Positions 1,030 to 29,765 of a stretch of 33,920 nt of DNA are shown one piece after another (the stretch's first letter is position 1; every line of letters starts with the position of its first letter). The translations under genes and the position numbers were made by a program. Source of the stretch: Bacteroidia bacterium (lineage in GTDB: Bacteria; Bacteroidota; Bacteroidia; SpSt-205); assembly GCA_026413325.1 (NCBI GenBank), contig JANZYW010000016.1, positions 1-33,920 of the forward strand, read 5' to 3'. The notes under the pieces were generated by a model, which did not search any database, was not told the origin of the DNA, and worked only from the letters and a program-made list of their open reading frames with translations.

Positions 1030-1062
1030 CAAAGTTAGGTAAAAAATCGGCATACACCCAAA
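1030..1062 (-). promoter_or_regulatory. Bacteroidota promoter of the surface protein gene
   Basis: On the minus strand TTTG (1062-1059) is followed after 21 bases by TAACTTTG (1037-1030). This matches the Bacteroidota -33/-7 consensus (TTG, about 19-21 bases, TAnnTTTG). Only TTAT separates the -7 box from the ATG at 1025, so the transcript would start at or within a few bases of the start codon. Confidence 0.75.
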
Positions 1063-5251: not shown

Positions 5252-5283
5252 CAAAGGTAAAGAAGGTTTCTTAGATTCGCAAA
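5252..5283 (-). promoter_or_regulatory. Promoter of the hmgA-hpd-GT9 operon
   Basis: On the minus strand TTTG (5283-5280) is followed after 20 bases by TACCTTTG (5259-5252). CTAT then leads directly into ATG at 5247. Both elements match the Bacteroidota consensus, and the short distance predicts a leaderless mRNA. This site decides the hmgA start in favour of 5247. Confidence 0.8.
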
Positions 5284-9130: not shown

Positions 9131-9138
9131 TAGGTTTG
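9131..9138 (+). promoter_or_regulatory. -7 box of sucD
   Basis: TAGGTTTG ends 4 bases (CGCC) before the sucD ATG at 9143, predicting a leaderless mRNA. The -33 region is occupied by the terminator stem of the preceding gene and has no TTG. Confidence 0.6.
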
Positions 9139-11466: not shown

Positions 11467-11474
11467 TACCTTTG
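11467..11474 (+). promoter_or_regulatory. -7 box heading the SCP2-to-murA gene run
   Basis: TACCTTTG ends 4 bases (AGCT) before ATG 11479. No TTG was found at the -33 spacing. It would drive the overlapping genes through murA as a leaderless transcript. Confidence 0.6.
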
Positions 11475-22062: not shown

Positions 22063-22923
22063 ATGAAAAACATACTGCATCTCACTGACTTTTCTGAAGT
22101 CGCACGAAACGCGTACGAGTATGCTATCCATCTTGCTCGGCAAGTAGGGGCAGAACTGCATGTGGCGCATATATATGACCGGCCATATGCAAGTATCGCC
22201 TACCAAGGGGGCTTGTCCGCCGTGATAGATGCGGAAATGGATGCCAAGATCCGGGCCGAGCTCAAAAAGCATTTGGAAACATATGCTACTGCTGTGGCCC
22301 ATGAAGGGATACGGGTCATCCTCCATCTATGGGGAGATATGTCGGTATGGCGTCCAGACCAGTATTTGGATAAAGTCCCTGGAACAGGCCTGATAGTAAT
22401 GGGTACTCGTGGGGCTACGAGCTTGTGGCACGGAGGTCTTTTCGGAACGAATACCGCTCGCCTCATTCGCCATAGTCCCGTTCCAGTCCTCGCCGTGCAT
22501 CCTCAAAATACCTATGCTCCCTACCAAAAGGCGCTTCTTCCAGTAGATATTTTTGATGAAGGCACACTCCCTATTATCAAAAAGGCGGTAGAATTTCTCC
22601 GTCCGTGGAGCGGAGTGAAAATATCTCTTCTTGTGGTAAATACCCCGTACGTGTTTTACGATACGGCATCCATAGAGAAGTTTATCCAACAAGTGAAGGA
22701 GAACGTTCGTCATGAAGCCTTAGACCTCCGAGTCTATAATGATATTTCGGTGGAGGAAGGGCTGCGTCAGGCTATGGAGACTGAAAAAGCGGACCTGCTG
22801 GTCATGGGTACGCATGCGCGAAAGGGATTGGCTCAGCTTCTTTTTGGGAGTATTACCGAGAATGTGGCGCAGCATTTATCCTATCCACTTTTGGCTTTCC
22901 CTCCAGAGGGAGTTTCCTCCTAA
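22063..22923 (+). CDS. Universal stress protein with two UspA domains
   Basis: The 286-residue protein has tandem Usp domains, about 1-140 and 150-282. The first begins MKNILHLTDFSEVARNAYEYAIHLARQVGAELHVAHIY and contains VMGTRGATSLWHGGLFGTNTARLIRHSPVPVLAV, which holds the family nucleotide-binding pattern G-x2-G-x9-G(S/T). The second ends with VMGTHARKGLAQLLFGSITENVAQHLSYPLLAF, with the same pattern, so both may bind ATP. Tandem Usp proteins are stress-induced cytoplasmic proteins of poorly defined action. The start is set by the -7 box just before ATG 22063. Its TAA stop interlocks with the TAG of the converging anmK (4-base overlap). Confidence 0.92.
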   Translation: MKNILHLTDFSEVARNAYEYAIHLARQVGAELHVAHIYDRPYASIAYQGGLSAVIDAEMDAKIRAELKKHLETYATAVAHEGIRVILHLWGDMSVWRPDQYLDKVPGTGLIVMGTRGATSLWHGGLFGTNTARLIRHSPVPVLAVHPQNTYAPYQKALLPVDIFDEGTLPIIKKAVEFLRPWSGVKISLLVVNTPYVFYDTASIEKFIQQVKENVRHEALDLRVYNDISVEEGLRQAMETEKADLLVMGTHARKGLAQLLFGSITENVAQHLSYPLLAFPPEGVSS

Positions 22924-24002
22924 AGGCTGAGAGTTCCGCTGCTATGGCCAGAGCGGGCTCCCGTCCACATTTTGCTTGTGTTGGGGAGTCCAAGCCATCG
23001 CAGTAGCCCTATTAGCCCAAACCCAATAACTTCTCGATAAGCTACAAGAGTCGATGGAGCTGGTTTATACTGGATATCCTCTTCTTTCGCCTTTTCCTGG
23101 AGAGTAGCTACGAGAAATGTATTGTAAGTGCCCCCTCCTGTTAGGGTGAAGGACCGAGCTTGTACCCTTTTTAGCTCCTTGATTAGAGTAGAGGCTATGA
23201 CGTGTACTGCGGTGTGGAGTTTATCTTTTGGGTGGGCATGATACGATAGGAATGGCTGTATAAAATGCTGTTGTGCAGATTGGTTGTCCAATGCTTTTGG
23301 AGGGGGGAGGTGGAGGAACGGTTGGCTTTCGAAGTAGGAGGCCAGCGAGGGAATAAGGTCTCCTGTCTGTGCCAAGGTTCCTTCGGGGTCATATAAAAGG
23401 TTGGGGTCTGCTTGCTGAGCGAGAGCATCCAGCAGTTGATTGCAAGGACAGATATCGTATCCTGTGGGGCGGGGGAGGTATGTGAGATTGGCGATCCCCC
23501 CTAAGTTGATGAGGGCTTCGTAAGAGGAAAAGAGGAGGGCGTCTGGGAAAGGGATAAGAGGGGCTCCCACACCTCCTGCGGCAATGTCTCGGGCTCGGAA
23601 ATGGGTTACAACAGGATGGCCAACTTGTACCCGCAGGCGCTCTGCATCTCCTAAGCTCCATGTCAGCCCCTTGTCTGGGCGATGGAATACGGTGTGGGGG
23701 TGCCAGGCTACTATGTCGTAGGCCTTATGAAAGAAGGTTTCCCGTACTTTCTGTGCGGTCCAGTCGGTGTACGAAATGCTTAGCTCCAGGATATCTGCTG
23801 CGGAGAGGTCTCTGGCTTTGAGCAGAACCTCTCGTAGGCTATTCGGGTAGGGAATGGTACTTCCTTCCAGGAGTTCATAGTGCCAGCGGTCGCTGAGGTA
23901 GCAGAAACGAATCAGGCCCAGGGTGATACCATCTGCGGAGCTCCCGGCCATAATCGAAAGGGTTCGGAAGTTACTTTGTTCCTTTCCCGAGAACTGTGGC
24001 AT
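22920..24002 (-). CDS. anmK: Anhydro-N-acetylmuramic acid kinase
   Basis: AnmK phosphorylates and opens 1,6-anhydro-MurNAc during peptidoglycan recycling, giving MurNAc-6-phosphate in the cytoplasm. The 360-residue protein shows the phosphate loop IMAGSSADGITLGL (cf. MSGTSLDGVD), SLGDAERLRVQVGHPVVTHFRARDIAAGGVGAPLIP and INLGGIANLTYLP. YDICPCNQLLDALAQQ contains the catalytic Asp region (DxGPxNxLLD in E. coli), and TLTGGGTYN is near the end. The first in-frame ATG at 24041 would overlap the upstream glycosyltransferase by 71 bases. I prefer ATG 24002 (MPQFSGKEQ, 32-base overlap), and a still later Met is possible. It is the last gene of the fbp operon and converges on the universal stress protein gene. 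Confidence 0.92.
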   Translation of the reverse strand: MPQFSGKEQSNFRTLSIMAGSSADGITLGLIRFCYLSDRWHYELLEGSTIPYPNSLREVLLKARDLSAADILELSISYTDWTAQKVRETFFHKAYDIVAWHPHTVFHRPDKGLTWSLGDAERLRVQVGHPVVTHFRARDIAAGGVGAPLIPFPDALLFSSYEALINLGGIANLTYLPRPTGYDICPCNQLLDALAQQADPNLLYDPEGTLAQTGDLIPSLASYFESQPFLHLPPPKALDNQSAQQHFIQPFLSYHAHPKDKLHTAVHVIASTLIKELKRVQARSFTLTGGGTYNTFLVATLQEKAKEEDIQYKPAPSTLVAYREVIGFGLIGLLRWLGLPNTSKMWTGARSGHSSGTLSL

Positions 24003-25152
24003 AAAAAGCTTGTAGGCGAGGTAAAAGAGCCTTTCGATCATAGTGGCTCTCCGCTAATAGGCGAGCGGCCGTTCCCAGCTGGATTCGGAGCTGCTCATCA
24101 GTATAGAGAGCAGAGAGGGCTTCGCTAAAGGAACGAGGATCATCTGCTATAAGAAGGTCTTTACCCGCAGTGTATATCAGGCTTTCTGCCGCTATAGAGG
24201 TAGCTACGATGGCTCGACCCATCGCAAATGCTTCGATAAGTTTGATACGGATCCCGCTGCCCGAGAAAAGCGGCGCAATACATATTTCGTGGGCCTGTAG
24301 GAACGCTTTGGCATCGGGGACAGGACCTAAGATGTGGGTCTGCTCGTCTGCATACCTGTACAGCCAGGGAGGACAGTTTCGTCCTGCTACGGATAAATGG
24401 GCTGAAGGATGTTTTCGGCGGAAAGAGGGCCATACTTCCTCTAAGAACCACAGGATGCCTTCTTGATTTGGTAGCCAATCTAACCCGCCGATAAATCCTA
24501 TTCGTGGGTTTTTTTCTCCCAAATGGGACGGCAAGTATGAAGATACATCTACGCCAAAAGGGAAAATCTCTACAGCTCCTTCATACCCTGTATGCTGTAT
24601 CCAGTCGGCTTCTTTCTCGGAGATAGGGAGTAAACCCGCGTAGTGGGTTAGTATATGCTTCTCATACTTGCGGATTCGCTTTGCTTGCAAGTGTAAGTAG
24701 CTTCGGAAAGGTTGGCGCCGTTCTCGGGCGTGTCTCTCCCATATTTGCCACTCGATATTGTGCAATCTATATACAGCTGGGATGGGGATTCTCTCGATGT
24801 AGGGAGTGAGGTACGGGCTTTCTACCTGGATAAGGTCTGGCTGGAAAGTAGTTAGAAGGGTCTGAAGAGCGGTCTTGTACATTTTTGAGCGAAAGCGGGC
24901 GACGTGGTAGGGCTCGTGAGAAAGGAGATTTCGTAGCGCCCCTCCTATTGTGGGACGCGTATCAACAGGTACCGCTGTAAGGGGGACTGGAGTGGGATAG
25001 GAGGGATCATAAGGGTGCTTGTATGTGCTCATCGTGAGGCTGTGGGGTTCCCAACCGGCCATCTGCCACAGCTCTAAGAAGTAAGCATTACCGATGGCTC
25101 CGCCATCGTGAGGGGGGTACGGTGGCTTGGGGGTCAGTTGAAGAAGTCGCAC
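23971..25152 (-). CDS. Glycosyltransferase family 4 (GT-B fold)
   Basis: This 393-residue protein has the two Rossmann domains of GT-B enzymes. The N-terminus, RLLQLTPKPPYPPHDGGAIGNAYFLELW, is the acceptor-side glycine-rich start. The C-terminal domain has IGFIGGLDWLPNQEGILWFLEEVWP (about 220-244), LSVAGRNCPPWL, ILGPVPDAKAFLQAHEICIAPLFSGSGIRIKLIEAFAMGRAIVAT with the donor-phosphate motif and catalytic-site Glu of the E-x7-E region, then AAESLIYTAGKDLLIADDP. It would transfer a sugar from a nucleotide donor to a glycan or lipid on the cytoplasmic side; the product is not predictable. The start is GTG, sharing its G with the TAG stop of the upstream small gene. It lies between that gene and anmK in a gap-free operon. 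Confidence 0.88.
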   Translation of the reverse strand: MRLLQLTPKPPYPPHDGGAIGNAYFLELWQMAGWEPHSLTMSTYKHPYDPSYPTPVPLTAVPVDTRPTIGGALRNLLSHEPYHVARFRSKMYKTALQTLLTTFQPDLIQVESPYLTPYIERIPIPAVYRLHNIEWQIWERHARERRQPFRSYLHLQAKRIRKYEKHILTHYAGLLPISEKEADWIQHTGYEGAVEIFPFGVDVSSYLPSHLGEKNPRIGFIGGLDWLPNQEGILWFLEEVWPSFRRKHPSAHLSVAGRNCPPWLYRYADEQTHILGPVPDAKAFLQAHEICIAPLFSGSGIRIKLIEAFAMGRAIVATSIAAESLIYTAGKDLLIADDPRSFSEALSALYTDEQLRIQLGTAARLLAESHYDRKALLPRLQAFYATVLGKGTK

Positions 25153-25394
25153 TACAGAAAAGTTTTATCCGAAGGAGGTAGCTCTGAGGGGGGGAGAGGA
25201 GGAGGGGATTCTTCTGAGGGAGCGTGGGGCTCTATACCGAGGGAGCGCAGAGATGCCTCCATTTGATGAAGGTGCCATTCTGCCTGCTTTCGAAGGCGGG
25301 CGAGCCGCATGCGCTCTTGTATTTTTTTCTGTTCTTCTAAGTCTTTTTTGTAGAAAGATTTGAGCTCTTCGTACTCTTCAGGAGTGTAGGACAT
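25152..25394 (-). CDS. Small charged coiled-coil protein of unknown function
   Basis: An 80-residue protein I do not recognise. Residues 5-52 are a highly charged helix rich in Glu, Lys, Arg and Gln (EEYEELKSFYKKDLEEQKK), probably a coiled coil. Residues 57-80 are rich in Pro and Ser (PSEESPPPLPPSELPPSDK) and likely disordered. It has no signal peptide or membrane segment. It is supported as a real gene by tight spacing: ATG three bases after the pspA stop, and its own TAG overlapping the GTG of the next gene. Its position next to pspA suggests, but does not prove, a link to PspA assembly. Confidence 0.7.
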   Translation of the reverse strand: MSYTPEEYEELKSFYKKDLEEQKKIQERMRLARLRKQAEWHLHQMEASLRSLGIEPHAPSEESPPPLPPSELPPSDKTFL

Positions 25395-25397
25395 ACA

Positions 25398-26141
25398 TCA
25401 GAGAAGCGGCTGCTTGCCTTCTCTTTCTTGTTCTCGGCGGGTAGATTCTTCTGGGGCAGGAGGAGTTGATTCTGCGATTCCGAGCTCTGCTTTGAGACGT
25501 GCCAGAGAATCCTTGGCTTGGATGCGTTCCATCTCTTCGTCTATCTTGAGTTTGGAAGTGTCGATGCTGTCCATTGCTAATTCCAGACGAGCTTCATACT
25601 GAGCGGATTTTTCCTGTAAGCGACGCACCATTTCGTCGTGGGTTTGGTCAATGCCTCCTACTTCGAACTGCTCGAAGGCGTCTGCGATCTTAGCCTGCCA
25701 TTTGGCTCTCTCGTACTGCTGGAGAGCAGCTCGGGCCTCTTGGATTTTGCGCTCTCGCTCTCGCATAAAGAGCTTTTTCACTTCCAGTGCTTTTTCATAG
25801 GCTTTTCGAGCGGCTTCTAACTCGGCTTGGGTCTGGCCGATGCTCTGTTTGAGCTTCTCTATGCGGAGGGCGTATTGCTCAGCCAGGTCCTCGCGGTTCT
25901 GGTTCAGAGCGGCCTTTACGCGTGCGATGAGGTCATTGTATTCGTTTTGGTATTTCTCCAGTTCTTTTTCCAGAAGAGTTACAGTCGCCTTGACGGAAGC
26001 GATATGCTCATTCATTTTGGGCACCTGCTCATTGAGCTCCCGGATATTTTGCTCTAAAATGAGCTTAGGGTCTTCGATCGTTTCTACGGCTTTTCCGAGC
26101 AGGGCGCGTATGGCACGCTTAAAGCGTTTCCACAGGGACAT
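25398..26141 (-). CDS. pspA: Phage shock protein A / IM30 (Vipp1) family protein
   Basis: PspA-family proteins are peripheral membrane proteins related to ESCRT-III that protect the inner membrane under stress. The 247-residue protein is almost entirely helical. The N-terminal amphipathic segment SLWKRFKRAIRALLGKAVETIEDPKLILEQNIREL (2-36) is followed by long heptad-rich coiled coils to about residue 200, then a polar tail (TPPAPEESTRREQEREGKQ). Its ATG lies within the last 23 bases of fbp, so it is translationally coupled to it. No PspF, PspB or PspC is in the window, so regulation would differ from the enterobacterial system. Confidence 0.92.
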   Translation of the reverse strand: MSLWKRFKRAIRALLGKAVETIEDPKLILEQNIRELNEQVPKMNEHIASVKATVTLLEKELEKYQNEYNDLIARVKAALNQNREDLAEQYALRIEKLKQSIGQTQAELEAARKAYEKALEVKKLFMRERERKIQEARAALQQYERAKWQAKIADAFEQFEVGGIDQTHDEMVRRLQEKSAQYEARLELAMDSIDTSKLKIDEEMERIQAKDSLARLKAELGIAESTPPAPEESTRREQEREGKQPLL

Positions 26142-27120
26142 TTTCGGTGAGGAATGCGGTTATTCGGTCTATTTCGTCAGCTGGACCTAAGAAAAGAGGG
26201 GTGCGTTGGTGGATAGAAGTAGGGGGTACGTCTAAGAGCGGTTTTACACCATTTGTGGCTTTCCCTCCTGCCTGTTCTGTGAGCCAGGCCATAGGATATC
26301 CTTCGTACAGCAGGCGAAGTTTCCCTTCGGGCTTTTTAGTAGTACCTGGGTATAAAAATATCCCCCCTTTCAGCAGATTCCGATGGAAGTCAGCCACCAG
26401 AGAGCCGACATAACGGAGAGATTGTGGCTTGGAAGTAGCTTGATTGCGGGAGTGCAGGTCTTGAACATATCGCTGTAAGGCAGGTACCCATTCATGCAAC
26501 TGGTTATCATTGAAGGAGTAATAGGTACTGCGAGGGGGCATCTGTACTTGAGGGTAAGTAAGTAGAAATTCCCCCGCGGCAGGCTCTAAGGTGAAGCCGT
26601 GTACCCCTCTCCCTGTCGTATAGAAAAGTAGCGTACTTGTTCCATAGAGAACATATCCTGCAGCAAGCTGAGCTCGACCTCCCTGGAGAAAATCTGCTTC
26701 TGTACAAGGAGTTCCGATAGGGGAAACCCGTTTGTAGATAGAGAAGATCGTCCCCACAGGGACGCCTACATCGATATTAGAGGAGCCGTCTAAGGGGTCA
26801 AATAGCACCACGTACTTTCCTTGGGAGTTGGTGGCGATGAGGTGCTCTTCTTCCTCAGAAGCTACTCCTGCTACATGTGGATTCTGAGATAGGAGGCGGA
26901 GGAAGAGGTTATTTGCCAGATGGTCTAACTTCTGGACCGTTTCTCCTTGGATATTGGTCAACCCCAGCTCGCCGAGAATGCCAGAGAGAGACGCTCTCCG
27001 TAGATAGAAGCTGATGAGTTTGGCTCCCAGCCCTATGTCGCGTAAGATTTTGGAGAAAGCGCCCGTGGCACCTTCGAACTCCTGCTGGCGATCAGCAATA
27101 AATTGCTCTAACGTGACCAT
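26119..27120 (-). CDS. fbp: Class I fructose-1,6-bisphosphatase
   Basis: This enzyme hydrolyses fructose-1,6-bisphosphate to fructose-6-phosphate in gluconeogenesis. The 333-residue protein is a complete class I FBPase: VASEEEEHLI (metal-binding Glu), the signature VLFDPLDGSSNIDVGVPVGTIF, RYVGSLVADFHRNLLKGGIFLYPGT and KLRLLYEGYPMAWLTEQAGGKATNG with the conserved Glu. The first residues, MVTLEQFIADRQQEFEG, match homologue starts. The ATG lies one base from the 3' end of tRNA-Ser, so there is no room for a separate promoter or ribosome binding site; the gene is probably cotranscribed with the tRNA and released by tRNA 3' processing. pspA begins inside its last 23 bases. Confidence 0.96.
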   Translation of the reverse strand: MVTLEQFIADRQQEFEGATGAFSKILRDIGLGAKLISFYLRRASLSGILGELGLTNIQGETVQKLDHLANNLFLRLLSQNPHVAGVASEEEEHLIATNSQGKYVVLFDPLDGSSNIDVGVPVGTIFSIYKRVSPIGTPCTEADFLQGGRAQLAAGYVLYGTSTLLFYTTGRGVHGFTLEPAAGEFLLTYPQVQMPPRSTYYSFNDNQLHEWVPALQRYVQDLHSRNQATSKPQSLRYVGSLVADFHRNLLKGGIFLYPGTTKKPEGKLRLLYEGYPMAWLTEQAGGKATNGVKPLLDVPPTSIHQRTPLFLGPADEIDRITAFLTENVPVETL

Positions 27121-27121
27121 G

Positions 27122-27209
27122 CGGAGAGAGAGGGATTCGAACCCCCGAGCCCGCTTAGCGAGCTACCTGATTTCAAGTCAGGCCCGTTCGACCACTCCGG
27201 CATCTCTCC
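27122..27209 (-). tRNA. tRNA-Ser (anticodon UGA)
   Basis: An 88-base class II tRNA on the minus strand. The acceptor stem is GGAGAGA/TCTCTCC with discriminator G. The anticodon stem CCTGA/TCAGG encloses loop CTTGAAA, giving anticodon TGA (27175-27173), which reads UCN serine codons. The long variable arm has stem GCTCGC/GCGGGC with loop TAA. The T arm is GGGGG-TTCGAAT-CCCTC. No CCA is encoded. Its 3' end is one base from the fbp ATG, and a -7 box lies 4 bases upstream of its 5' end. Confidence 0.95.
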
Positions 27210-27213
27210 TTTA

Positions 27214-27221
27214 CAAAGATA
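27214..27221 (-). promoter_or_regulatory. -7 box of the tRNA-Ser/fbp operon
   Basis: TATCTTTG on the minus strand ends 4 bases (TAAA) before the first base of the tRNA. Transcription would thus begin at or very near the mature 5' end, with little or no leader for RNase P to remove. No TTG was seen at -33. Confidence 0.6.
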
Positions 27222-27267
27222 CGGAGATTGCGTGCACCTTTTAGGAAGATCTTAAGTAGAAAACTCC

Positions 27268-27275
27268 TACCTTTG
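27268..27275 (+). promoter_or_regulatory. -7 box of porV
   Basis: TACCTTTG lies 24 bases before ATG 27300 and about 50 bases from the divergent tRNA-Ser box. This gene and the OmpA/TPR gene are the two with a short leader. It excludes the in-frame upstream start at 27228 for porV. Confidence 0.6.
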
Positions 27276-27299
27276 TTTGGCGGTTTTGGGGATTCTCAT

Positions 27300-28427
27300 A
27301 TGCTTGGTCGGATAGTGTGCGTGAAAATGCTTCTCTGCCTCCCCCTCATGGTATGGGGGCAGGCTCAGTCTACCCCCTCTGGACAGATTAGAGCGATCAC
27401 GACAGCGGTTCCTTTCCTTTTGATTTGTCCAGATGCTCGAAGTGGAGGCTTTGCCGAAGCTGGAGTCGCCCTTCCTCCCAACATGTATAGCATGCACTGG
27501 AATGTAGGGGCCCTTGCTCTTATGCAGGAACGTATGGGGGTTGCTTTCTCATATACCCCTTGGTTGCGTGCCTTAGGCATCGGGGATATCAATCATCTGT
27601 ATGTGCCTTTCGCCTGGAATATCAGTGAAAAAGCGGGGGCTTTCGGTGCTTCTCTAACTTTCTTTAGCCTCGGCAAAATAGAGTTTACCGATAATGCAGG
27701 TATAAAGACTGGAGAGTACGATGCGAATGAATTCGCTATCTCTACTGGCTATAGTCATGTTATCACTGGAAACCTCTCGGCAGGGGTAGCTTTGAAATAT
27801 GTACAAAGTAATCTCACTGGGGCTACGACGGTGGGAGGGCTTACCACGCAACCGGGACGTTCGGTAGCTGGTGACATGGGAGTTTTCTATCAAAAGGATG
27901 TTACTCTCAAGGTAAATCCTAAACCTCTTCCCTTGACTGTCCGCTGGGGCGTCCATCTGAGTAACCTCGGGGCTAAAATGGCCTATACCAGTTCGGGTCA
28001 ACGCGATTTTCTGCCTGGGAACCTTCGGATTGGGTATGCTCTGACCCTAAAGATGGACGATTTCAATAGCTTTACCCTCGCAAATGATTACAACAAATTG
28101 CTCGTTCCCTCTGCAGGTGGGGCGGCGCAGGTAGCCCTATTAGAGGGAATGTTCAAGAGCTTTGCAGACGCTCCAGGAGGGTGGAGAGAAGAAATCTCTG
28201 AAATCTACTGGAGCGTGGGGGCAGAGTATGACTACAATCGCATTTTTCAGGTCCGAGGGGGCTTTTTCTACGAGGACCCCATGAAAGGGAATCGGCGATT
28301 TATCACGCTCGGGGCGGGCATTAACTTTCGCCAGATCGGGCTGGATGTCGCCTATCTCACCTCTCTTGTGCAGAATCACCCTCTGCAAAACACGCTTCGA
28401 TTTACGCTGCGGTATATGTGGCGCTAA
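27300..28427 (+). CDS. porV: Type IX secretion outer-membrane protein PorV (LptO) family
   Basis: PorV is an outer-membrane barrel of the type IX secretion system that shuttles cargo from the translocon to the attachment complex. The 375-residue protein starts with a signal peptide (MLGRIVCVKMLLCLPLMVWGQAQ). The mature N-terminus has ITTAVPFLLICPDARSGGFAEAGVALPPNMYSMHWNVGALAL, the PorV family hallmark (cf. TAVPFL-I-PD-RAGAMGDAGVA). Many alternating strands follow, with a typical last barrel strand ending in Arg (LRFTLRYMWR). The start ATG 27300 follows a -7 box; an upstream in-frame start would lie before the promoter and spoil the signal peptide. No other secretion gene is adjacent, although the surface protein at the left edge could be a client. 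Confidence 0.9.
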   Translation: MLGRIVCVKMLLCLPLMVWGQAQSTPSGQIRAITTAVPFLLICPDARSGGFAEAGVALPPNMYSMHWNVGALALMQERMGVAFSYTPWLRALGIGDINHLYVPFAWNISEKAGAFGASLTFFSLGKIEFTDNAGIKTGEYDANEFAISTGYSHVITGNLSAGVALKYVQSNLTGATTVGGLTTQPGRSVAGDMGVFYQKDVTLKVNPKPLPLTVRWGVHLSNLGAKMAYTSSGQRDFLPGNLRIGYALTLKMDDFNSFTLANDYNKLLVPSAGGAAQVALLEGMFKSFADAPGGWREEISEIYWSVGAEYDYNRIFQVRGGFFYEDPMKGNRRFITLGAGINFRQIGLDVAYLTSLVQNHPLQNTLRFTLRYMWR

Positions 28428-28659
28428 GAGGCCAACACCTACTGCCCCATCCCTATAGAAATGAGATTTTTCTTGACGAGGATCGTGTATGGCTCAGGGG
28501 TCTTGGGAGTTTTTCGAGCGGGTAGTTATCGCTGAGGTTGCATCAAGGGAGGGCTGCGATCTTCTTATCCAGGGTGGAGGGAGGTGACTAAGCGGCAGCA
28601 GCCGCCACTTGGACGCACAGCCGAGAGGCAAGCAATATAAGGGATAGCCCCAGGGATCT

Positions 28660-28687
28660 AAAAAAGCAACGAGGCTTATAATGCCTC
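28660..28687 (-). terminator. Probable terminator of lpxB
   Basis: On the minus strand GAGGC (28687-28683) and GCCTC (28675-28671) form a 5-bp stem around a 7-base loop, then GTTGC and six T (28665-28660). The stem begins within the lpxB stop codon. The stem is short, so strength is uncertain. The rest of the 258-base gap to porV (28428-28685) holds one other hairpin (GCGGC-AGCA-GCCGC, about 28592-28605) and no gene. Confidence 0.45.
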
Positions 28688-29765
28688 AAACCTCAAGGGC
28701 ATCGAGGATACACTGAGCGGCAGCTTCTGCAGCACTTTTCTCTCCGAGGAGGCTGTGGAGATTTGCCAGCTTCAACTGGATTGTGTCTCGCTCTTTTATC
28801 TGAGACTCCAAGGCAGTGGCGATCGAAGTGGGCGTACACTGGCGCTGGATAAGTTCAGGAAAAACAGCCTCTCCCAAGATAAGATTGGGAAGGCCGATGA
28901 AGGGAACCCTCACGAGCTGTTTGGCTATCCAGTAGGAAAGAACATTGCCTTTGTACACAATCACACTGGGACAGCCTAAAAGTGCGGCTTCAAGGGTCGC
29001 CGTTCCAGATGTCACCACCGCTGCAGCGGCTCCTTTGAGCAGGGGGTAGGTCTGCCCTACCAAGACAGGAAGGTGAGGAGCGAGTTTTCGATAGAATGAC
29101 TCTGGAAGATGGGGAACCCGTGAAACATAGAAATCCCATTTGGGAAGCAGGTCTGGCAGCCGAGCCATTAGGGGGAGTATGTGTCGTACTTCATGTATCC
29201 GACTTCCAGGGAGAAGGGCGATGTACGGTTTAGAAGCGGAGAATGCTGGTATGCCTCGGAGTTTGTCTACCAGCGGGTTTCCCACATACTCGGCATGTAC
29301 CCCCCGGCTTCGATAAAAGTCGGGTTCAAACGGAAGTATGCACAATACTTGGATGAGGGGGTGTCGGAGGTAGCGTACTCGCCCTGGGTTCCATGCCCAG
29401 AGTTGAGGAGGAATAAAGTATGTTACGGGTATCCCTTGCCTGACGAGCCATCGAGCCAGTCGTAAGTTGAGGCCCGGATAATCTACCAGCACTACTCGAT
29501 GAGGTTTCCATGCAAGGATATCTCTTTGTAACTTTCGATAGAGAGAGACAAAGCGGCCGATATGCTTGAGTACCTCGACAAATCCAACGACGGCGTATTG
29601 CTCCCAGGATGTCAGGAGAGACACCCCTAACTGAGCCATATCAGTTCCACCCATTCCTCTCATGAGAAGGGTAGGTTCTCTTGCTCGCAAGACAGAGATA
29701 ACGGAAGCGGCATGTTGCTCCCCTGACAGCTCTCCTACTACCCAGTACAAACGGGGAGACTTCAC
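28686..29765 (-). CDS. lpxB: Lipid-A-disaccharide synthase
   Basis: LpxB (GT19) condenses UDP-2,3-diacylglucosamine with lipid X to form the lipid A disaccharide at the inner membrane. The protein is 359 residues from a GTG start (read MKSPRLYWVVGELSGEQHA), with the family motif GE-SGD-H at the N-terminus. MRGMGGTDMAQLGVSLL, VLVDYPGLNLRLARWLVRQGIPVTYFIPPQLWAWNPGR, YVGNPLVDKL, ALLPGSRIHEVRHILPLM and VVTSGTATLEAALLGCPSVIVYKG are all conserved. An in-frame TTG at 29774 lies inside the -7 box and is therefore not a start. The gene is monocistronic, convergent with porV, and has a probable terminator at its stop. It confirms a lipid-A-containing outer membrane. Confidence 0.94.
   Translation of the reverse strand: MKSPRLYWVVGELSGEQHAASVISVLRAREPTLLMRGMGGTDMAQLGVSLLTSWEQYAVVGFVEVLKHIGRFVSLYRKLQRDILAWKPHRVVLVDYPGLNLRLARWLVRQGIPVTYFIPPQLWAWNPGRVRYLRHPLIQVLCILPFEPDFYRSRGVHAEYVGNPLVDKLRGIPAFSASKPYIALLPGSRIHEVRHILPLMARLPDLLPKWDFYVSRVPHLPESFYRKLAPHLPVLVGQTYPLLKGAAAAVVTSGTATLEAALLGCPSVIVYKGNVLSYWIAKQLVRVPFIGLPNLILGEAVFPELIQRQCTPTSIATALESQIKERDTIQLKLANLHSLLGEKSAAEAAAQCILDALEV

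Follow-up and report, generated by a model that had tools for sequence, protein, structure and literature searches.

The gene for fructose-1,6-bisphosphatase, fbp, begins immediately behind a tRNA-Ser gene, and we propose that both belong to a single punctuated operon, in which maturation of the tRNA 3' end would free a leaderless fbp-pspA-orf80-glycosyltransferase-anmK mRNA, a reading to which we assign a probability of about 0.7. The DNA analysed is a stretch of 33,920 nt from a Bacteroidia bacterium (assembly GCA_026413325.1, contig JANZYW010000016.1), hereafter the window. The Ser/fbp arrangement is not a singleton and forms part of a family-wide set of tRNA-CDS junctions, and from their sequences we predict co-transcription, the site of cleavage and leaderless translation, and conjecture that there may be a regulatory role.

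The acceptor stem of tRNA-Ser(UGA) (27122-27209; GGAGAGA/TCTCTCC), encoded on the minus strand, ends at 27123 and is followed by the discriminator G27122, a single C at 27121 and the ATG of fbp at 27120. Both the sequence and the Rfam boundaries thus confirm the initial annotation, which had placed the tRNA, with its discriminator at 27122, one base before the fbp start codon. A motif scan finds a -7 box of the Bacteroidota sigma-A type (TAnnTTTG), TATCTTTG, at 27214-27221 on the minus strand, i.e. 4 nt from the first base of the tRNA (27209). Between 22,900 and 27,300 this strand contains no second TAnnTTTG box, so that the stretch from 22,900 to 27,213 offers none for a separate fbp promoter. 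A scan of 22,500-29,500 for sigma-70-like sites returned 5 sites in total, as compared to 5.1 expected by chance, none of them on the minus strand from 26,802 to 28,633. Thus, for TAnnTTTG and sigma-70-like sites, the two types covered by the promoter scans, fbp has no promoter separate from that of the tRNA, just as expected for tRNA punctuation, and the earlier statement that the box lies 4 bases upstream of the tRNA and that no room is left for an fbp box is borne out by the motif scan. A separate box on the plus strand (27268-27275) belongs to the divergent porV gene.

The start of fbp (26119-27120, minus strand; class I enzyme, 333 aa, ATG start) is firm. Reading in frame from the upstream stop codon, which is a TAG within the tRNA, no ATG, GTG or TTG is encountered before 27120; both FBPase domains are present (PF00316, PF18913), the Pfam domain beginning at residue 3, which corresponds to profile position 2; and the N-terminus that starts with the ATG at 27120 is conserved among relatives. 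Initiation at a downstream or other alternative codon, which the initial annotation had still allowed for, is therefore rejected. On the same strand fbp is followed by pspA (25398-26141; PspA/IM30 family, PF04012), which overlaps the end of fbp, by orf80 (25152-25394), an 80-aa ORF without assigned function with a similar ORF in 12/12 loci compared, by a glycosyltransferase gene (group 1/4 according to Pfam, GTG start; 23971-25152), and by anmK (22920-24041; anhydro-N-acetylmuramic acid kinase, PF03702), which overlaps the listed glycosyltransferase ORF, so that all neighbours overlap or are a few bases apart. The previously described operon of fbp, pspA and anmK is therefore correct in the genes it names and has to be extended by orf80 and the glycosyltransferase gene, which are located between pspA and anmK. 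The order fbp-pspA-orf80 is kept in all 12 loci, pspA adjoining fbp in each of them, and the glycosyltransferase and anmK genes are present in 8 of the 12, some of which end early; these loci comprise 11 named contigs and one stretch of genome G006, and two of them represent one genome that is counted twice.

The presence of the Ser/fbp junction in all 12 genomes examined of the family, which consists of uncultured Bacteroidia, argues that it is more than chance. Named relatives are Bacteroidia MAGs including KatS3mg025, SKYB95 and SKW77, and RSWP8, which is filed as Sphingobacterium sp. The spacer comprises 1 nt in ten genomes (C|ATG), 2 nt in G007 (CC|ATG) and 3 nt in G006 (CAA|ATG), i.e. 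the C at the junction is retained throughout, and the spacing stays at 1-3 nt while the fbp proteins are only 74-85% identical across the family. In G011 the ATG at +1 gives fbp two residues more than in the other genomes. Nine of the 11 genus genomes have 4 nt between box and tRNA and the other two have 5 nt; in G011 the distance is 11 nt. Altogether, 30 fbp loci were scanned for tRNAs (12 family and 18 class outgroup loci; 25 further outgroup fbp matches were left out), and no tRNA was found upstream of fbp in the 18 outgroup loci, of which up to about 1.5 kb of upstream DNA was scanned. Conservation of the junction in relatives, a check that had been suggested earlier, is therefore given within the family, and the junction was not found in the class outgroup loci examined.

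The layout recurs elsewhere. In genome G000, to which the window belongs, 11 of the 42 tRNAs are followed by a protein gene whose start codon lies at most 4 nt past the discriminator; wider junctions (Asp/ligA, Gly-CCC, Lys-CUU) are not part of this count, and ORF matches inside tRNA clusters (Ala-ggc, Ile-gat) were excluded as in-frame readings of tRNA sequence. The distance is 1 nt for Ser/fbp, Val-CAC/dxr (TTG start), Thr-CGU/cytochrome c554-like (GTG), Met/OsmC-like (GTG) and Leu-UAG/trigger factor (tig, TTG), 2 nt for Arg-UCG/ribosomal protein L25 (rplY), His/DUF2480 and Trp/secE, 3 nt for Phe and an ORF without identity, and 4 nt for Leu-UAA, followed by a 68-aa ORF for which no Pfam family was found, and for Gln/prs. 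Pfam supports fbp, dxr, tig, L25, prs, OsmC and DUF2480, and cytochrome c554 weakly; the first 16 residues of G000 SecE were matched to ORFs of G006, G010 and G011, which we take to be secE from their place and sequence. For 10 of the 11 junctions the orthologous ORF is found behind the same tRNA in G006, G010 or G011 with similar gaps, the exception, Gln/prs, being matched in G012 only with a gap of 10 nt, and the gap of Trp/secE widens in the outgroups from the 2 nt of G000 to 4 nt (G012) and 8 nt (G050). The position of the start codon is better kept than its identity: in the OsmC-like gene it reads GTG, TTG and TTG in G000, G006 and G010, respectively, always at C+1, and in tig it also switches between GTG and TTG at a fixed C+1 position. 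Most junction tRNAs, or the short tRNA clusters they belong to, are preceded by a promoter box. Of the two tRNA-Phe genes of G010 (locus L181), a single one is followed by a CDS start, 3 nt downstream.

In a census, the tRNA+ATG pattern was matched 65 times in the 12 genomes of the family and 76 times in the 48 outgroup genomes, and the control with GTA instead of ATG gave 13 and 57 matches, respectively, all figures being sums of per-genome counts that include non-tRNA background; of the 8 ATG matches in G000 five were checked, yielding four confirmed junctions (Ser, Arg-UCG, Trp, His) and one tRNA-tRNA pair (Arg-CCU). Housekeeping genes of mixed function lie behind the other junctions, so that the link to gluconeogenesis and stress, which the initial annotation drew from the genes of the operon, finds no specific support, and a device unique to gluconeogenesis or stress has to be rejected, the same layout recurring at unrelated genes.

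Of 200 tRNA genes from G000, G006, G010, G011, G012, G050 and G051, 192 have a C behind the discriminator, and the next base is free. Since the Bacteroidia tRNA genes examined nearly all encode C74, the single C at 27121 (minus strand) can be assigned to C74 of tRNA-Ser, C75 and A76 being unencoded. A complete CCA end is encoded in 2 of the 42 tRNA genes of G000, and tRNA-Ser, reading C-ATG, is not one of them. In the same genome 10 of the 42 tRNA genes have another tRNA within 60 nt downstream, and tRNA-tRNA pairs whose spacer is one C, i.e. C74 of the upstream tRNA, were seen in G000, G006, G010, G011 and G012; pairs spaced by one base in at least one of these genomes are Val-Thr, Lys-Leu, Pro-Arg, Ile-Ala, Ala-Ala and Leu-Met. 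Class-wide, 59 of the 60 genomes have 1-22 matches each to the pattern of a tRNA end followed by a base other than C, and on visual inspection most of those listed do not resemble tRNAs; the exception in this census is G037, a genome of 0.5 Mb, with 25 matches.

With the spacer C being C74, cleavage may fall behind it, which would leave no leader at all. Cuts between the two Cs of CCA provide a precedent for cleavage that leaves C74 on the tRNA, as they are documented for P. acnes (PMC3848588) and S. coelicolor (PMC4681348). There, C74 stays on the tRNA as it would here, but the affected genes encode CCA, whereas here C74 alone is encoded (PMC3848588, PMC4681348). A candidate for the 3'-processing endonuclease is present in the form of an RNase Z homologue, which was found at full length in 4/4 genus genomes searched; its bit scores of 271-284 do not reach the equivalog cut-off (293). 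CCA-type residues inhibit RNase Z in model bacteria, and C74 could therefore hinder RNase Z here. The RNase P RNA of the genus has a length of 302-306 nt (loci L304 in G010, L305 in G000 and L306 in G006) with segments of the model missing, as compared to 394 nt in G050.

An mRNA with 0-1 nt in front of its AUG should be translatable in this lineage, as the promoter boxes generally lie at positions that fit transcripts beginning with the start codon. The -7 element of F. johnsoniae is separated from the transcription start by 4-5 nt (PMC6847099), and in the genus boxes at this distance from start codons are a genome-wide habit. Counting non-operon genes with a box within 150 nt of their computationally predicted start, the box lies 0-9 nt before the start in 62/92 genes of G006 (400 kb; 31 of them at exactly 4 nt) and 31/52 genes of G000 (321 kb), as compared to 9/30 in G012, 13/38 in G050, 1/28 in 19 Chitinophagales-type loci (L072-L090) and 0/5 in 17 class loci (L013, L015-L030); Fisher's exact test against the Chitinophagales-type set gives p = 2.7e-7 for G000 and 8.7e-10 for G006. 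Genes were called with a dicodon model (334 genes) that replaced a cruder caller (114 genes in 400 kb), and as the starts are computational the test was repeated without gene calls, yielding for both G000 and G006 an ATG peak at offset 4 from the box, and none at this offset in G012, G050 or the Chitinophagales-type loci. Over the 12 family genomes TAHHTTTG-N4-ATG occurs 1728 times versus 153 for the N30-ATG control (ratios 5.7-29.8), and over 48 outgroups 3563 versus 2801 times (median ratio 1.09). This excess over the control makes leaderless mRNAs look like the default in the genus. Five outgroups (G020, G021, G025, G028, G031) also exceed a ratio of 3, so the habit is not exclusive to the family with the Ser/fbp junction, and across the 48 outgroups the ratio and the abutment of tRNA and ATG are uncorrelated (Spearman -0.11, p 0.47), which gives no support to a causal link between them. 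The window itself has further candidate leaderless genes, marked by boxes at 1030-1037(-), 5252-5259(-), 9131-9138(+) and 11467-11474(+) that are each followed by an ATG after exactly 4 nt.

Published Bacteroidota are mostly reported to be poor in leaderless genes: the published figures are 1 of 37 Bacteroidetes/Chlorobi genomes (PMC3160421), about 3.7% leaderless in B. thetaiotaomicron (PMC7366714), 5.5% in F. psychrophilum (PMC9723704) and, for F. johnsoniae, 87% of leaders longer than 10 nt (PMC6847099), although a high leaderless fraction is attributed to earlier work in another paper (PMC5397173). In contrast, the family described here shows the signature strongly and resembles Actinobacteria and Deinococcus-Thermus, where the box likewise puts the transcription start at the start codon and AUG, GUG and UUG serve as starts.

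Based on these findings, we suggest the following scheme. Transcription would begin at 27209, where tRNA-Ser has its first base, or directly beside it, as the spacing of the box indicates, and, with a single promoter box at hand, read through from the tRNA into fbp-pspA-orf80-glycosyltransferase-anmK. An endonuclease, most likely RNase Z, would then cut directly after G27122 or after C74 (C27121), so that the tRNA is completed by addition of CCA or CA and the mRNA begins with C-AUG or AUG, from which, given the genome-wide habit, it may be translated by leaderless initiation. The same type of junction would serve about ten further genes. In the uncut RNA the AUG abuts the acceptor stem and might be translated badly, and we speculate that maturation could for this reason gate expression. 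The processing mechanism put forward initially is thus supported in part, i.e. by the single box, the lack of room for an fbp promoter, the conserved junction, the roughly ten similar junctions and the leaderless habit, with an endonucleolytic cut at this place and a control of the fbp level by maturation as its predicted elements; the one-base leader it assigned to fbp becomes one of 0-1 nt, as a cut after C74 may leave none. For the scheme we count the conservation of the junction, the single box, the eleven junctions, the fixed position of the start codons, the one-C tRNA spacers, the box statistics, the RNase Z homologue and the precedent for a cut at C74; against it we count the score of the RNase Z homologue, the potential hindrance by C74, the missing correlation between leaderless ratio and abutment in the outgroups, and the possibility of mere genome compaction.

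Compaction without function, to which we give a little less than an even chance, would mean that deletion bias joined tRNA and CDS, that fbp is translated from any RNA and that the junction has no regulatory meaning. The equally short tRNA-tRNA spacers and the many CDS pairs that overlap or almost touch fit this view, and the wider Trp/secE and Gln/prs gaps in G012 or G050 are what gradual shortening would give, but a spacing kept at 1-3 nt despite the divergence of fbp does not. Moreover, compaction conflicts only with a selected role of the junction and not with 5' ends generated by tRNA processing, as the processed mRNA would still be leaderless. It appears improbable that fbp is transcribed from a weak or alternative-sigma promoter of its own, inside or upstream of the tRNA, with the tRNA sequence remaining as an unprocessed leader: the limitation of the scans to two types of sites leaves some room for such a promoter, but neither type was found in the relevant regions, and in a leadered RNA an AUG abutting the 7-bp acceptor stem should, judged from the predicted fold, be poorly accessible. 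Slightly less probable still is a maturation that makes the tRNA at the expense of the mRNA, either exonucleolytically from a far 3' end or after RNase E-type cuts in fbp, so that fbp is expressed from escaping transcripts only. Exonucleolytic maturation of tRNA 3' ends does occur in bacteria, but the encoded RNase Z homologue and the eleven genes sharing the layout, several of them usually essential (dxr, tig, rplY, secE, prs), argue against destruction of the mRNA.

A punctuated operon would, if confirmed, be a bacterial counterpart of mitochondrial tRNA punctuation in which the tRNA acts as a removable 5' leader. The question whether genomes become free to fuse tRNA genes with protein genes through leaderless initiation can then be tested, the encoded C74 precisely predicts the position of the endonucleolytic cut, and the general picture of Bacteroidota as leadered and SD-less changes, as one family seems to be mainly leaderless. 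A more far-reaching version, which is conceivable but which we rather doubt, holds that tRNA 3' cleavage after C74 is required for fully leaderless mRNAs of about ten housekeeping genes (the fbp operon, dxr, tig, L25, secE, prs and others) and thereby ties the supply of these mRNAs to the maturation of tRNAs, as a standing, mitochondria-like device of a mostly leaderless lineage. A literature search, with bioRxiv outside its scope and few subscription journals covered, turned up, among the papers listed, none that deals with leaderless mRNAs abutted by tRNAs in bacteria or with tRNA genes encoding C74 only.

The abutting layout of tRNA and CDS is familiar in mitochondria and unusual in bacteria. 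In animal mitochondria tRNA excision defines the 5' ends of the mRNAs, and, as here, tRNA genes abut CDS starts so that excision would give (nearly) leaderless mRNAs; in contrast to mitochondria, the case proposed here concerns a bacterium of about 2.2 Mb and about one quarter of its tRNAs, mostly with a box before each tRNA or short cluster. Bacterial tRNA-mRNA operons such as thrU-tufB and trpT-secE also unite a tRNA gene with a protein gene in a common transcription unit, and Trp/secE is even common to both, but with only 1-4 nt between tRNA and CDS the junctions described here, unlike these operons, have no room for a leader or a ribosome-binding site, the distance of Trp/secE being 8 nt in G050.
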